64,000 nucleotides of DNA, from contig NC_057385.1 of assembly GCF_016906535.1 (NCBI RefSeq), forward strand, positions 3,410,001 to 3,474,000, given 5' to 3'. This stretch comes from Rhizoctonia solani. Its lineage: Eukaryota > Basidiomycota > Agaricomycetes > Cantharellales > Ceratobasidiaceae. A model generated the notes under the pieces. The model was not told where the DNA came from and did no database searches. It saw nothing but the letters and a program-made list of their open reading frames with translations. The position numbers and the translations under genes were made by a program. This document shows, piece after piece, positions 2,149 through 19,663 of the stretch (the first letter of the stretch is position 1; each line of letters starts with the position of its first letter).

Positions 2149-5100
2149 CTAGTTTTCAGCTGACACCTGAGATCCCGATTGTGCTTGATCTGGAACGTTG
2201 AACGCGGAAATGCTCTGAGCCCATTCCGTTTCAGGGTACAATACAGACTTACCATGATGTGATTCCGAAGAGGGGTTCCCGATCTCTTGGACACCATAAT
2301 TACCCAGTATTTGTTCCTAAAATAGTATGTGCGAATATCGCATTTGACAAAATAAGAAGAATCAAATTCTACTGATATACGCACCAACTGCGGAATATAT
2401 TGACCGTAATCAGGACTAGAGCATATCGTTATACAAGAGATTCTATGCACTCACCCGCTGAAAGAACAAAACAACAGTGCTTCTGTATTAGTTAAAGCCC
2501 ACCCCAAAACATTGAGCCAAGTACACATACACTCTAAGATCATGAATACCGGTCCTCAAGCCATCAATGTGCTGTTACAGGGAACACAACTCATACAAAC
2601 CATCTATGGTAGAGGTTCCCAATCCTCAGCTGTGAGTATAAATTTGTTCTAAAGAAGAAATAGGTCCATACAGCCTAAAAAAAAAGAGATCGGATTCTCT
2701 AGTTATTGACGGATATTCGAGCAAGTTGCTGCCGTATTTGTACCTTCTGGGAGGTTAGACACGAGCTTCTGTTAGTGAAAATCGCTTAGATAAAACTGGT
2801 ATTAGGTACACACGAGCTGGGACATCAAGCGGGAAGGTCTCGAGTGATCAACGGGTGCCCTCTGCGGCAGTGATAAATGACCAGATAAAACATACCCACT
2901 GAGAAAATAAGTAAGCCGATCAAAGAGTGGTAAGTACATGCGATATGGCTTGAGATCCATAGCAGACTCACGGGCTGAGATTAAAGCCACCAAACCGCGA
3001 AGATGAGTGCACAATGCCTCCTGATCGTTGTTTTGTACACACGTTCTATAAATACGAAAAGGGAGAGGGGTGGCAGAGGTGTCAGTCACCATTCGTACGC
3101 TCAAAGTAAAATCTAGGCACATGCTGCGTAGAAGTCGTAAACATTTGTCACGGTGCAAATAAAGGAAACATGGGCCCACTCTCTAAATTGTTAAGCACTA
3201 CTTCGTAAGCTAGTCCGATCTATGCCATACATTACGCACCCGCTGAGGAGCCAAACAGCATGTAGTGTGTCGTCAGTGCATATCCATCCTCGACATGAAC
3301 ACTATACGCACAAGCTGAGGTACCGAACGGCACGCATTGTGTCGTCAGCGCATATCCATCCTTGACATGAACACTATACGCACCTCCTGAGGTACCGAAC
3401 GGCACGCATTGTGTCGTCAGTGCATATCTATCCTCGACATGAACACTATACGCACCCACTGAGGTACCGAACGGCACGCAGTGTGTCGTCAGTACATATC
3501 CATCCTCCACACCAGCCCTATACGCACCCGCTGAGGTACCGAACGGCACGCAGTGTGTCGTCAGCGCATATCGATCCTCGACATGAACACTATACGCACC
3601 CACTGAGGTACCGAAGGGCACGCATTGTGCCGTCAGTGCGTATCCATCCTCGACATCAATCCTATACGCACCTCCTGAGGTACCAAACGGCATGCAGTGT
3701 GTCGTCAGCGCATATCCATCCTTGACATGAACACTATACGCACCTCCTGAGGTACCGAACGGCACGCATTGTGTCGTCAGTGCATATCTATCCTCGACAT
3801 GAACACTATACGCACCCACTGAGGTACCGAACGGCACGCAGTGTGTCGTCAGTACATATCCATCCTCCACACCAGCCCTATACGCACCCGCTGAGGTACC
3901 GAACGGCACGCAGTGTGTCGTCAGCGCATATCGATCCTCGACATGAACACTATACGCACCCACTGAGGTACCGAAGGGCACGCATTGTGCCGTCAGTGCG
4001 TATCCATCCTCGACATCAATCCTATACGTACCCACTGATGTACCGGACGGCACACAGTCGATCGTCAGTACAGACCTATGCTTGACATTCATGCAGTACG
4101 CACATCCTACATTACCGCATGCAGATTAATTATCTATCGCCAGGTATATTCTCTCTCAGTTTGCTCAATACGCACCGACTTGATTCCCACCGGTATCGAG
4201 TATCACGCATTGAACAAGCATTTCTATCGCGAACTTATTTTCACCGAACCTTCTGAAATACAACATGTCAGTATGAAAGCTGTGGGCACACACATCATCT
4301 CCAGAAACATCATTCACTTACTGTCTGGTATTGTAGTTCCGAATAATTTACTTGAATATCCATGTACTCGTGGGTCACCGTCTACGTACCTCCTACAGTC
4401 CCAAAATTCAGTGCTTCCACCCTTGGCTCAATCACAAACTGTGAATGAATGTACCATCTATTTATTCCCGACCGCCACAACGTCATTAGTACTCAATCAC
4501 AATGTTAAGATTCATATTTAGCTACGTACTGCCTGCCATGTGGTCCGTTGATGAATACTTTGTCAAGCCTTCATACAATCATTAGCCAATCAATGACCTC
4601 GAACCACCGTGCATGTTTTTCGTACTTGTTACTGTAGTAGTTATAATCGGCTCACTCTCTATTCATCAATACCCTGCATCAGACACTGCTGTCTTCTTCA
4701 AAAAAATCCCCTACCTGCTATTCGTATGACACGTGTTTAGCTCTGGCGACACGCGCCTCCTTTCTTTGGATAAGTAAGCTATATTTGATTTGTTTACGAA
4801 ACCATCTGAGACTCACACACTTTTAGGCAGTCCCCCAGTAGGCACCACCAGATTGGGTTGTGAGTACTCACTTCCTAAATGCTATTGATACCGATCAACC
4901 ATTTGTTAGCATATAGGCTGATAACCGGCATGCCTATTGGTAGCGTACAGAACGTACTTACAAATTGTCTCATTTATCGCGCTCAGATCTATGTGTTAGG
5001 ATTTTCTACACGACAGCCTAACAGATCGGCGATAAGTGTAATCGAATATATTGTCACGTGGACCTTGAATGTAGGAGACCTACCACCAACTAATGGAATT

Positions 5101-5981
5101 GTTATTATGACTTCTACATCAAGAAAAGATACGAATAGGATGATAGTAAATGCGATATATACCTTCTGTGAAAGCACGTTGATCAGTCCTTTGCCTCAGC
5201 CCCACTCTAAGGCACCCACCATCTATAAATAATGTGAGAAACGAGGTCACACTCATATGGCTTTTGGGAACCCTGACTTTCTGTTCATTGTGAAGTCCGA
5301 GTTAGCAGCGAATCTCAAAACCATAGCCGCACACTCGAACGTACGATCTATATTGATATATGGTCCCGGCCTAAGGTCATAACTCCCGATACTGTTGTCA
5401 TTTGGACATACCCACTGCTCAAAAGTTATCATGCCATGTATAGATACCTCAGTTGGCGCATACTCACATCCTGTTTCCGAACGGACTCAAACTCTTTAGT
5501 ACATCAGTATGACAATTCACTCACCCTCTGTTGAAGCGTTCCCGACGACCATCGTCAGCACCTAGGTCTTATCTGAAGATTTGCGTACGAACCGCCTATC
5601 AACGCTTTAGCTTTCTTCGCTTCAATCATGATCAGGATTAGGGTTTAGTACGCACTCGCTGTACAGATTCGTTGAGACCGATTGTCAATCGGACTGCAAA
5701 ACCGGATCGCCAAGTCCAAATCCCACTCACTTCCTATATGGGTATATCATATTTTGTCAGGATCATATACTGTTATACACAGAGCTCTATCTTACATCCT
5801 TCAGAATACGCGGGGGATTGGGCTAGACTCAGCAAGTCGAAGCGCTTCGTATGTTTTTACATCTCATACCTTTGAACCCTGCATATCGGAAATCGCACAA
5901 TAATAGAACGATAGGATTATGGTATATAATTATCGGCGATGCTTGATAAATGGGAAATATAGGCGCGAGAGACCGTACCAT
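2149..5981 (-). CDS. Candidate gene built from 49 successive single-codon microexons
   Basis: I do not recognise the product. The model starts with ATG 5979-5981, followed at once by a GTACGG donor, then a 9-nt exon 5870-5878, then 49 exons of exactly 3 nt. Their lower coordinates are 5796, 5731, 5656, 5593, 5525, 5468, 5412, 5345, 5278, 5220, 5163, 5087, 5015, 4954, 4872, 4803, 4715, 4656, 4530, 4455, 4390, 4322, 4250, 4176, 4104, 4032, then every 72 bp from 3960 to 3240, then 3180, 3121, 3043, 2972, 2896, 2814, 2744, 2672, 2601, 2531, 2455, 2385. Two longer exons, 2253-2316 and 2149-2189, end the gene at TAG. Every microexon has the form AG|NNN|GT, usually with a good donor (GTGCGT, GTGAGT, GTATGT, GTACGT), a branch-like CTNAY and a pyrimidine-containing acceptor. 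The spliced frame is 264 nt (87 aa) without a stop. It begins MGSKDERARDWIKMK and is rich in Trp, Arg and Glu in the middle. An in-frame TGA lies just upstream of the ATG. Ambiguous exons: 5087 (or 6 nt, 5084-5089), 5015 (or 6 nt, 5012-5017), 4954 (or 7 nt, 4962-4968), 4803 (or 4817-4819), 4250 (or 8 nt). Transcription is unproven. Confidence 0.6.
3232..4180. repeat. 72-bp tandem repeat with 360-bp higher-order period
   Basis: Units are nearly identical between about 3260 and 4090 and repeat every 72 bp. A five-unit block is itself duplicated, so 3411-3725 matches 3771-4085 at an offset of 360 bp. Fourteen AG|NNN|GT modules fall exactly 72 bp apart, at 3240, 3312 and so on to 4176, although the last two units are strongly diverged in sequence. 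Read on the minus strand, each unit contains a GTGCGT donor, a CTGAC branch-like site and a TACCTCAG acceptor, so each is one intron plus one codon. The array also leaves a 286-codon minus frame and two plus frames open, simply because 72 is a multiple of three. Confidence 0.9.
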
Positions 5982-6283
5982 TGCGAGTAGTCAATTTATA
6001 TGAGTTATATGATATTCTTGAATGCCTCGACGCTTGGTCGTGATCTGTGCAAGTGTTAGTTATGCGGAGCTATCGACTCACTGGTGAGTGATAGAGAGCA
6101 GAACGAGAACCGGAGAGGGCGAGATTATAAATACTCGTGACTTAGAGACTTGCAGCTAATTTACCTCGAGGCAGACCTCGAGGTGACCACCAGGCCGATT
6201 CGGGACCGGCCCTGAAGATGGAGACCACAGCTTTAACCCAGTGACCAAACCTGCACGAGCTACATATCCCCTCAAACTGAACC
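5982..6283. other. Upstream region of the microexon gene
   Basis: A possible 5'-UTR intron on the minus strand runs 6081 to 6045, with donor GTGAGT, a CTAAC site and acceptor CACAG. At 37 nt it is shorter than other introns here, so it is weakly supported. The region also separates the microexon gene from the divergently transcribed gene at 6284 and must hold both promoters. Confidence 0.35.
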
Positions 6284-18387: not shown

Positions 18388-19663
18388 TTAGCCTATTTGT
18401 GAAAGCATGCCCAAACCAATCTTGTTCTCACCGGAGCACTTGGATCCGCAGTTAACGGCGACCCGTTGGGCTTTATCGATGACAGCAATCTTATTGTTAC
18501 TTCCGGTGAAATTAATGCCCTAAAAAGATAGTGCATGAATGACCTCAACTATCGTATACATTTGGGCGTTAACTTAGTACTTACGGACATCGACACGCCA
18601 TTTCCTGGGGACCCCAAAGTCGTAGGATAACCTTGATCGATGATTATTCCAAATCTCCTCAACCCTGTTCCAGTATTACCAGAATATGTGATATCGGAAA
18701 CTGCTGCGTTTGTGGCATCCTTCTTGGTCTTGATGCGCAGGGCTTGATCGTTGTTCACAATTTGGTTGTCGAGAATTTTAATTCCTTTAACCGTTGCGTC
18801 CGAGGAGATCGAACCAATGGATATCCCATGGCCACCACTGCAATAGTTGCGTTGAAATATTATATTCGAACCTTTGTTAATAGCAATACAATCGTCTTGA
18901 TTGTAAATCTTGCTATCCTCGATAGTCAAATCGGTAGTCGAGGCATCGAATCCATCCCTAAACAAGACCAAATGATTCAAGCCGATATCTATATTGACCA
19001 TAGGCATGGAATACTCACGTGTTGTGGCCGGCAGCTTTGCCGCCCGACTTGTTATTTGGTTGATCCCCGGCAGCTTGAAATGGCACTCATTAGTTCGCAT
19101 CCAATAATTGAGCGGATAAAGCTTACAGTTATCAATCGTAAGTTTCGACATAACTAGTTTGGCGGGATTCGAGATACTATAGGTATGGGCGGGAGAGTTG
19201 AGCACCTTGACATTTGTGTAGGTCCCCGACATCTTAATCTTCATCATCGGGTGGGGTTTAGTGGCCCCTCCGTTCCCACCTTGGCCATCCCAGTACGAGG
19301 GCCCTTGTCCATCAAAGGTGTGCCCGTTGCCGTTGACTAACTTCAATTAGTGGGTGGTATTATACAGATACACAGAGAGGAGCTAACAAGTAATACCCTT
19401 TCCGGTAATTTGGAAGAGTGGGCCCCCCCAATTGGCTACCTCAAACTTGATATCACCTTGTAGATTGACTGAGTATTCTCGAGCAGGCTGAGTGCAAAGG
19501 TCTTGCCGGCTGGGACGGTGAAACCCTTGATATTTATGGTGGTGCATTTCTGGGCTGCAGAAACATCATTAAGTGAGGATATAGTTCCGGTACAACGACC
19601 GATTGGAGAAGCAGTTGCCAGCAACGGAGCAAGTGCAAGCACACCGAGGGGGAGGTAATGCAT
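18388..19663 (-). CDS. Secreted polygalacturonase, glycoside hydrolase family 28
   Basis: The enzyme hydrolyses alpha-1,4-galacturonosyl bonds of pectin outside the cell. It starts at ATG 19661-19663 with a signal peptide (MHYLPLGVLALAPLLATAS). Catalytic motifs are YNQDDCIAIN (the Asp-Asp pair), GGHGISIGS (catalytic His), and RIKT. GPSYWDGQGG and SPAHTYSIS are also typical. Introns are supported at about 19092-19145 (GTAAGC), 18974-19018 (GTGAGT), 18520-18585 (GTAAGT), and 19338-19390. The last exon encodes GINFTGSNNKIAVID and VAVNCGSKCSG, and ends at TAA 18388-18390. One base seems to be missing near 19480, where SVNLQGDIKFEV shifts frame. Length, about 360 residues, is normal for the family. 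Confidence 0.93.

Follow-up and report, generated by a model that had tools for sequence, protein, structure and literature searches.

Predicted codon-by-codon splicing and hypervariable codon arrays in two gene families of Rhizoctonia solani

A predicted gene composed of single-codon exons

On the minus strand of a 64,000-nucleotide stretch of the Rhizoctonia solani genome (assembly GCF_016906535.1, contig NC_057385.1, positions 3,410,001 to 3,474,000; in the following, the window), positions 2149..5981 contain a predicted gene in which nearly every codon forms an exon of its own. The coding span of 258 nt is divided into 51 exons, 47 of which are single codons, and the deduced protein has 85 amino acids. 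Sequence comparison makes it quite probable that this gene and its relatives are spliced codon by codon, and that units consisting of one intron and one codon act as recombining cassettes for a hypervariable peptide. A gene of tens of consecutive single-codon exons, as proposed in a preliminary description of the window, is the interpretation which best fits the comparative evidence. This is because the exon modules are conserved while the introns have diverged, because synonymous changes are in excess and no stop codon occurs in the chosen modules, and because the spliced codons of a second, unrelated gene run in frame into a protein kinase.

The dense series of AG-NNN-GT modules (hyphens mark the exon borders), on which that proposal was founded, is real. 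In the 64 kb, the pattern AG-NNN-GT[AG]NGT has 41 matches on the minus strand, 33 of them within 2149-5981; the plus strand has 11, none of them in this interval. A stricter module, YAG-NNN-GT[AG]NG, occurs 35 times in the 3833 bases of the gene, and the longest chain with a spacing of 45-100 nt has 14 members. These values are far above those of 1000 first-order Markov simulations of the same bases, which averaged 1.38 modules, never exceeded 6, and gave no chain longer than two; it should be noted that 13 of the 47 single-codon exons, being units of a 72-bp tandem array, cannot be counted as independent. The CTNAY-like branch sites were likewise borne out: among 339 introns from five gene copies, 279 have such a site 6-60 nt upstream of the acceptor, whereas 50 mononucleotide shuffles gave 103 on average and at most 131. 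The introns flanking single-codon exons are in phase 0 and have a median length of 69 nt. Folding of three array introns gave no unusual stability (z-scores of -0.24, 1.10, and -0.02).

Copies of the gene and evidence for coding

The array and the 5' half of the gene served as queries against the genome (40.7 Mb, 16 contigs); since the array searches scored the best candidates only, all locus counts are lower bounds. Besides the window copy on contig C16, members of this family (family A) were found on C9, C12 (three copies), C13, and C11, that is, on five contigs in all. At least six copies are full-length, one of them with a lost acceptor, and one copy (L011 on C12) is truncated at its 3' end. 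The six share a common plan. The first coding exon consists of the ATG only, and the second measures 9 or 15 nt; they are followed by 22 single-codon exons, the array with its 12-48 single-codon exons, 13 further single-codon exons, an exon of 64 nt, and a last exon. The first of the 13 post-array exons (3242 in the window) is still part of the 72-bp array. Thus, the six gene models, which are backed by the alignment of the copies, predict tens of 3-bp exons per gene, namely 47 in the window and 67, 68, 59, 83, and 83 in the other copies. Each model is a single open frame; the proteins have 85 to 123 residues, and the introns, which measure 53-170 nt, are all GT-AG except for one in L014. L013 (C13) and L014 (C11) differ by 4 mismatches in 6435 aligned bases and by 5 gap columns; the pair is either a recent duplication or an assembly matter and was counted as one copy in the comparisons unless stated otherwise. 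A further locus, L015 (C3:58500-65000), has a few array-like modules and a weak array match and is perhaps a decayed relative.

Among 34 aligned modules of five copies, the mean pairwise identity of the introns is about 0.64, whereas the three codon positions reach 0.88, 0.89, and 0.79. At donor positions G5 and T6, the identity is 0.92 and 0.90; for AG and GT it is 1.00, owing to the way the modules were selected. In six copies, 35 codons can be aligned (the 34 outside the array plus the last unit of the array). In 16 of them all copies agree; of the other 19, 6 differ by synonymous changes only. Among 30 single-base steps, 14 are synonymous (expected fraction 0.206, P = 0.0012) and 16 nonsynonymous; three further steps involve several bases. 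No stop codon occurs in the 324 chosen family A modules, 144 of which are one change away from a stop, compared with 23 stops in 438 background AG-NNN-GT triplets. The nominal probability of this absence, 2.6e-8, is too small, because the array units are related by duplication. In the truncated copy L011, AG or GT is missing from 3 of the 22 five-prime modules which the window copy, L009, L010, L012, and L013 have kept, a contrast that is favoured by the choice of columns, as these were picked for being shared.

When five spliced proteins of family A were compared with 3596 database candidates, a single one matched at E ≤ 10, namely AG1IA_08049 of Rhizoctonia solani AG-1 IA. Its last 34 residues are identical (34/34) to those encoded by the final two exons of the L012 model, across their junction; upstream, the two proteins cannot be aligned. 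AG1IA_08049 stems from another assembly and illustrates how such a gene fares in automatic annotation: as only the final two exons of the gene model are matched, gene finders may miss genes of this kind.

Hypervariable codon arrays

The central part of the window gene is an array of 13 single-codon exons on the minus strand (3240..4106), spaced exactly 72 bp apart, with variable codons and the deduced peptide DWWRWEEWRWELR. In such 72-bp arrays, the introns are much alike from unit to unit, whereas the codon differs. Six arrays were analysed, five from family A and one from the second family, B, described below; in every one of them, no other triplet window of the unit varied as much as the codon. 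The diversity of the array triplets was between 0.535 and 0.653, that of the introns between 0.036 and 0.174, and the ratio between 3.1 and 17.0. Even units with identical introns frequently carry different codons, as found for 30 of 57 such pairs in L009, 61 of 77 in L010, 10 of 14 in L012, 10 of 30 in B1, and 1 of 1 in B2 (B1 and B2 being the two family B genes); in the window copy the count was 0 of 4, and L013 has no such pairs. All three codon bases differed in 19 of the 57 pairs in L009 and in 26 of the 77 in L010.

A permutation test indicated that codon and intron type are partly linked: p was 0.0005 for L010, 0.0015 for B1, 0.003 for L013, and 0.04 for L012, whereas the linkage was not significant in the window copy (0.06), L009 (0.16), and B2 (0.34). 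Units specifying the same amino acid almost always use the same codon. Different codons were seen in 0 of 282 such pairs in B1, 0 of 14 in B2, 0 of 4 in the window copy, 0 of 46 in L009, 2 of 59 in L010, 0 of 47 in L012, and 10 of 107 in L013. Many array codons are common to several copies. As a side observation, the window array seems on reading to contain a duplicated block of five units (360 bp) within 3240-4106.

A kinase family with the same predicted structure

As a control, both strands of 20 random 10-kb regions (200 kb, on 4 of the 16 contigs; two regions overlap by about 950 bases) were scanned for chains of modules. In 37 of the 40 strand-regions no chain exceeded one module, two had a chain of two, and one (L025 on C9) had a chain of 65; one positive in 20 regions is a very rough guide to frequency only. 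This chain belongs to a second predicted gene, B1, on the minus strand (L025 and L038, C9:1777600-1790562), in which 65 single-codon exons with a period of 67 bp are in frame with a protein kinase. As 67 is not a multiple of three, the array cannot hold a repeated reading frame. The model begins with an exon encoding MNNSNP, followed by the array peptide RLFSAESARAEFRALLEELASLNEEEQQAREPEFRALFNELRRAQQAEEENAEEWRRRASENEPL, an exon of 18 codons, and the kinase exons, without any stop; the junctions downstream of the array were placed manually. In the joined model, the domain Pkinase (PF00069) was recognized at residues 122-372 with E = 8.5e-41. None of the 64 B1 units examined is a stop, though 36 are one step away from one.

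Sequence comparison revealed a duplicate of this gene, B2, on the minus strand at L039 (C9:1925800-1928300), with 16 predicted single-codon exons and the array peptide PYPQQPTQVQYTIEPL. The flanks of the duplicates are similar, with 864 of 899 bases in agreement upstream and 476 of 508 downstream; of the array residues, only the last three are the same. A protein search with the N-terminus of family B (residues 1-92) gave no match reaching E = 1 among 190 candidates.

Structure of the window gene in detail

The outer parts of the gene, which frame the array, were delimited by alignment of the copies and by the gene models; all of them lie on the minus strand. The preliminary description gave the start codon at 5979, a 9-nt exon at 5870, two ordinary last exons, and the stop codon TAG at 2149, and these assignments hold. 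The coding part of exon 1 is the ATG (5979..5981), followed by a conserved donor GTACG. Exon 2 (5870..5878) encodes GSK; its length among the copies is 9 or 15 nt, a change of two whole codons. The conserved N-terminal part DERARDWIKMKLAEQRAMETKS is encoded by 22 single-codon exons (4176..5798), the first bases of which are 5798, 5733, 5658, 5595, 5527, 5470, 5414, 5347, 5280, 5222, 5165, 5089, 5017, 4874, 4717, 4658, 4532, 4457, 4392, 4324, 4252, and 4178. The exon at 5089 (TTG) may be of 6 nt (TTGGTG), because the donor common to the copies sits 3 nt further on. Downstream of the array, the last exon of which (3242) is grouped with the 3' block in the gene models, 12 single-codon exons (2385..3182) with first bases at 3182, 3123, 3045, 2974, 2898, 2816, 2746, 2674, 2603, 2533, 2457, and 2387 encode the C-terminal half RHNPWLKAMSRL. 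The 64-nt exon (2253..2316) and the last exon (2149..2189), which ends with TAG, follow; the conserved motif HHDQAQS straddles their junction.

The number of single-codon exons had originally been given as 49. For 47 of these, counterparts exist in the copies; TAC at 4956 and ATG at 4805 lack an AG-NNN-GT counterpart in the aligned copies and were dropped. All 50 introns of the resulting model are GT-AG and have 53-154 nt. Three of them are long (140, 154, and 123 nt), and the first two are located where the two exons were removed. A likely 5' UTR (untranslated region) intron of 37 nt (6045..6081, minus strand; GTGAGT...CTAAC...CACAG), seen by eye in the alignment of all seven copies, adds to the previous account. 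Elsewhere in the window, a minus-strand open reading frame (ORF) at 18549-19346 (265 aa) looks, judging by its motifs, like a polygalacturonase.

Proposed explanation

We propose that nearly every codon is a separate exon in working protein genes, where the outer codons are conserved and would encode fixed ends of the protein. Removal of the introns is probably sequential, since simultaneous binding of donor and acceptor sites separated by only 3 nt is hard to envisage. The centre would be a tandem array with a unit of one intron plus one codon. Homologous recombination would act on this unit of 67 or 72 bp, such that the protein can gain, lose, or reorder single residues. As unequal crossing-over or conversion keeps the frame, the peptide should be rewritable residue by residue. 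We prefer a scenario in which the codon alphabet predates the present arrays: units would be copied and exchanged, introns homogenised, and the variety of codons kept by selection. Homogenisation of introns within a locus, combined with retained codon diversity, suggests that the peptide is under diversifying selection. The truffle and NLR (NOD-like receptor) genes discussed below prompt the speculation, by analogy, that the peptide plays a role in self/nonself recognition.

A more far-reaching version assumes a genome-wide system of codon cassettes, in which several unrelated families are edited by recombination one residue at a time and the peptides of duplicates differ almost completely in spite of near-identical flanks. 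As one of 20 random 10-kb regions contained an array, there may be many more; we regard this extension as having a somewhat less than even chance of being correct.

If our interpretation is correct, splicing operates near its lower size limit dozens of times in a row, and the question arises how the spliceosome handles a gap of 3 nt between acceptor and donor. It moreover suggests a route of protein evolution in which the recombining unit (the intron) is apart from the coding unit (the codon), allowing for changes of length and sequence without frameshifts. Should the arrays be recognition regions, they would offer a testable nonself-recognition system in a basidiomycete.

Alternative explanations

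A first alternative accepts the exons as real and sees their main point in combinatorial skipping, which would generate many peptide isoforms as in the truffle genes. It is compatible with our interpretation, and all 47 to 83 single-codon exons could be removed without a frameshift. Yet, the conservation of donor positions G5 and T6 and the 16 invariant codons out of 35 suggest constitutive inclusion, at least of the outer codons, and we consider a predominant role of skipping possible, though clearly not the favoured option.

It is improbable that the modules are a non-coding satellite, a dead gene, or microexons restricted to an untranslated leader. Translation of the kinase family could start downstream of the array, and the possible stop-bearing sites described below were excluded from the models. 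Against this stand the absence of stops in both families in spite of the many modules one step away from a stop, the conservation of the first and second codon positions, and the loss of AG or GT from modules of the truncated copy L011 that are intact in five other copies.

With even lower probability, a mobile intron (introner) was inserted at every codon boundary of an ordinary coding sequence. The near-identical array introns beside different codons are what this model predicts. However, apart from the weak match on C3, the array sequences turned up in no other loci than the seven of family A or the two of family B, both counts being lower bounds; in addition, an invaded ordinary gene should mix synonymous codons more than is seen for units specifying the same amino acid.

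Least probable of all is that the array encodes, without splicing, a protein of 24-residue repeats. A 286-aa ORF (3232-4092, minus strand), which could mislead annotation, does exist, and in the window copy, L009, L010, and L012 this frame is interrupted by one stop at most; yet four of six frames are open in L009, so that openness says little, the frame has 56 stops in L013 and 44 in L014 (probably because some units have other lengths), the period of family B is 67, and the unevenly spaced modules outside the array are left unexplained.

Several observations weigh against codon-by-codon splicing, our preferred interpretation. Outside the triplet, the diversity in the frame of this ORF peaks at the third position in four of five arrays, with small margins (L013: 0.164/0.153/0.187), which weakly favours the unspliced repeat protein; in L009, the third position has the lowest value. 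L014 lacks one acceptor, which its near-identical sister L013 keeps. Two family A proteins were scanned, without a Pfam match; the spliced N-terminal parts matched no database protein in a search limited to shared 5-residue words and similar lengths; and a helical periodicity of the seven spliced peptides was not significant (p from 0.06 to 0.71). Because the array units are copies of each other, neither the stop counts nor the diversity values represent independent sampling.

Furthermore, the modules were not chosen blind. Between GCT (5017) and GAA (4874), the copies L009, L010, L011, and L012 contain a site TTAG-TAA-GT, which, used as an exon, would introduce a stop and which has a good spacing (117-118 and 55 nt where listed). 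This site was dropped: its donors lack G at +5 and it is absent from the window copy, L013, and L014, and the stretch was therefore taken as one long intron, with a length of 140 nt in the window copy versus about 170 nt in its relatives. Short exons (5, 8, or 18 nt) in this stretch of the copies, considered by eye, were rejected, as they break the frame or carry stops. A second common AG-TAA-GT column (TAA in L009, L010, L013, and L014; CAA in L012) was excluded because it lies only about 28-30 nt after the preceding exon. Excluded as well were nested sites 4 nt into a true module (AG-GAA-GTGAGT also gives AG-TGA-GT), several of which are stops. L009, L010, L011, and L012 also share a CATTA-GTAAG site between 5017 and 4874; this site and TTAG-TAA-GT are perhaps remnants of lost modules.

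Comparison with known systems

Searches of the literature for fungal microexons, single-codon or 3-nt exons, and Rhizoctonia microexons gave no report of these genes among the matches listed. PMC4014442 mentions both Rhizoctonia and microexons, and its sole microexon passage concerns an aligner setting; PMC4986451 is a survey of NLR genes which mentions both terms.

For single-nucleotide exons, two papers report one case per gene, in Arabidopsis (PMC4674806) and in CYP621A of Fusarium (PMC12940212). Exons even smaller than ours are thus reportedly spliced, also in a fungus, which suggests that so small an exon can be processed; unlike in our genes, they do not form series. The micro-exon genes of schistosomes, as portrayed in passages of PMC10526429, resemble the genes described here in having many tiny, mostly in-frame exons that are difficult for automatic annotation. 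Those genes encode secreted proteins and have 10 to 20 such exons, mostly of 15 bp (range 6-81 according to the text of that paper, 3-81 according to its abstract), and introns of 0.1 to 5 kb, whereas here 47-83 exons of 3 nt are separated by introns of 53-170 nt.

The introner-like elements of fungi described in PMC4457414 are near-identical short introns as well; they are spread across unrelated genes, whereas the introns considered here are in tandem within one family. Apart from one weak match on C3, searches of the genome with the two array units led only to their own families, these counts being lower bounds. The WD, ANK, and TPR repeats of fungal NLR/HET genes, as far as described in passages of PMC4986451, have in common with our arrays the shuffling of repeats, concerted evolution, and diversifying selection at chosen codons. 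There, the repeat is a whole structural motif; here, it carries one codon, and the homology resides in the intron.

The closest parallel is provided by the NACHT-ANK (nank) genes of the truffle Tuber melanosporum, for which, according to passages of PMC3689799, PMC4986451, and PMC10197012, tens of alternatively spliced 3-bp microexons were reported in 2012. The statement of the preliminary description that no family with this architecture was known can hence not be upheld. Both systems have tens of 3-bp exons, predicted in our case, in a fast-diversifying protein family of a filamentous fungus. The truffle genes are ascomycete NLR genes with ankyrin repeats and are described as alternatively spliced; our families, from a basidiomycete, specify a short orphan protein, two versions of which gave no NACHT or ankyrin match in Pfam, and a protein kinase. 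Moreover, single codons make up most of the orphan's coding region in our case, and the codon arrays are hypervariable. The novelty of our findings is therefore that a known type of architecture is now predicted in another phylum, in unrelated proteins, and with hypervariable codon arrays.

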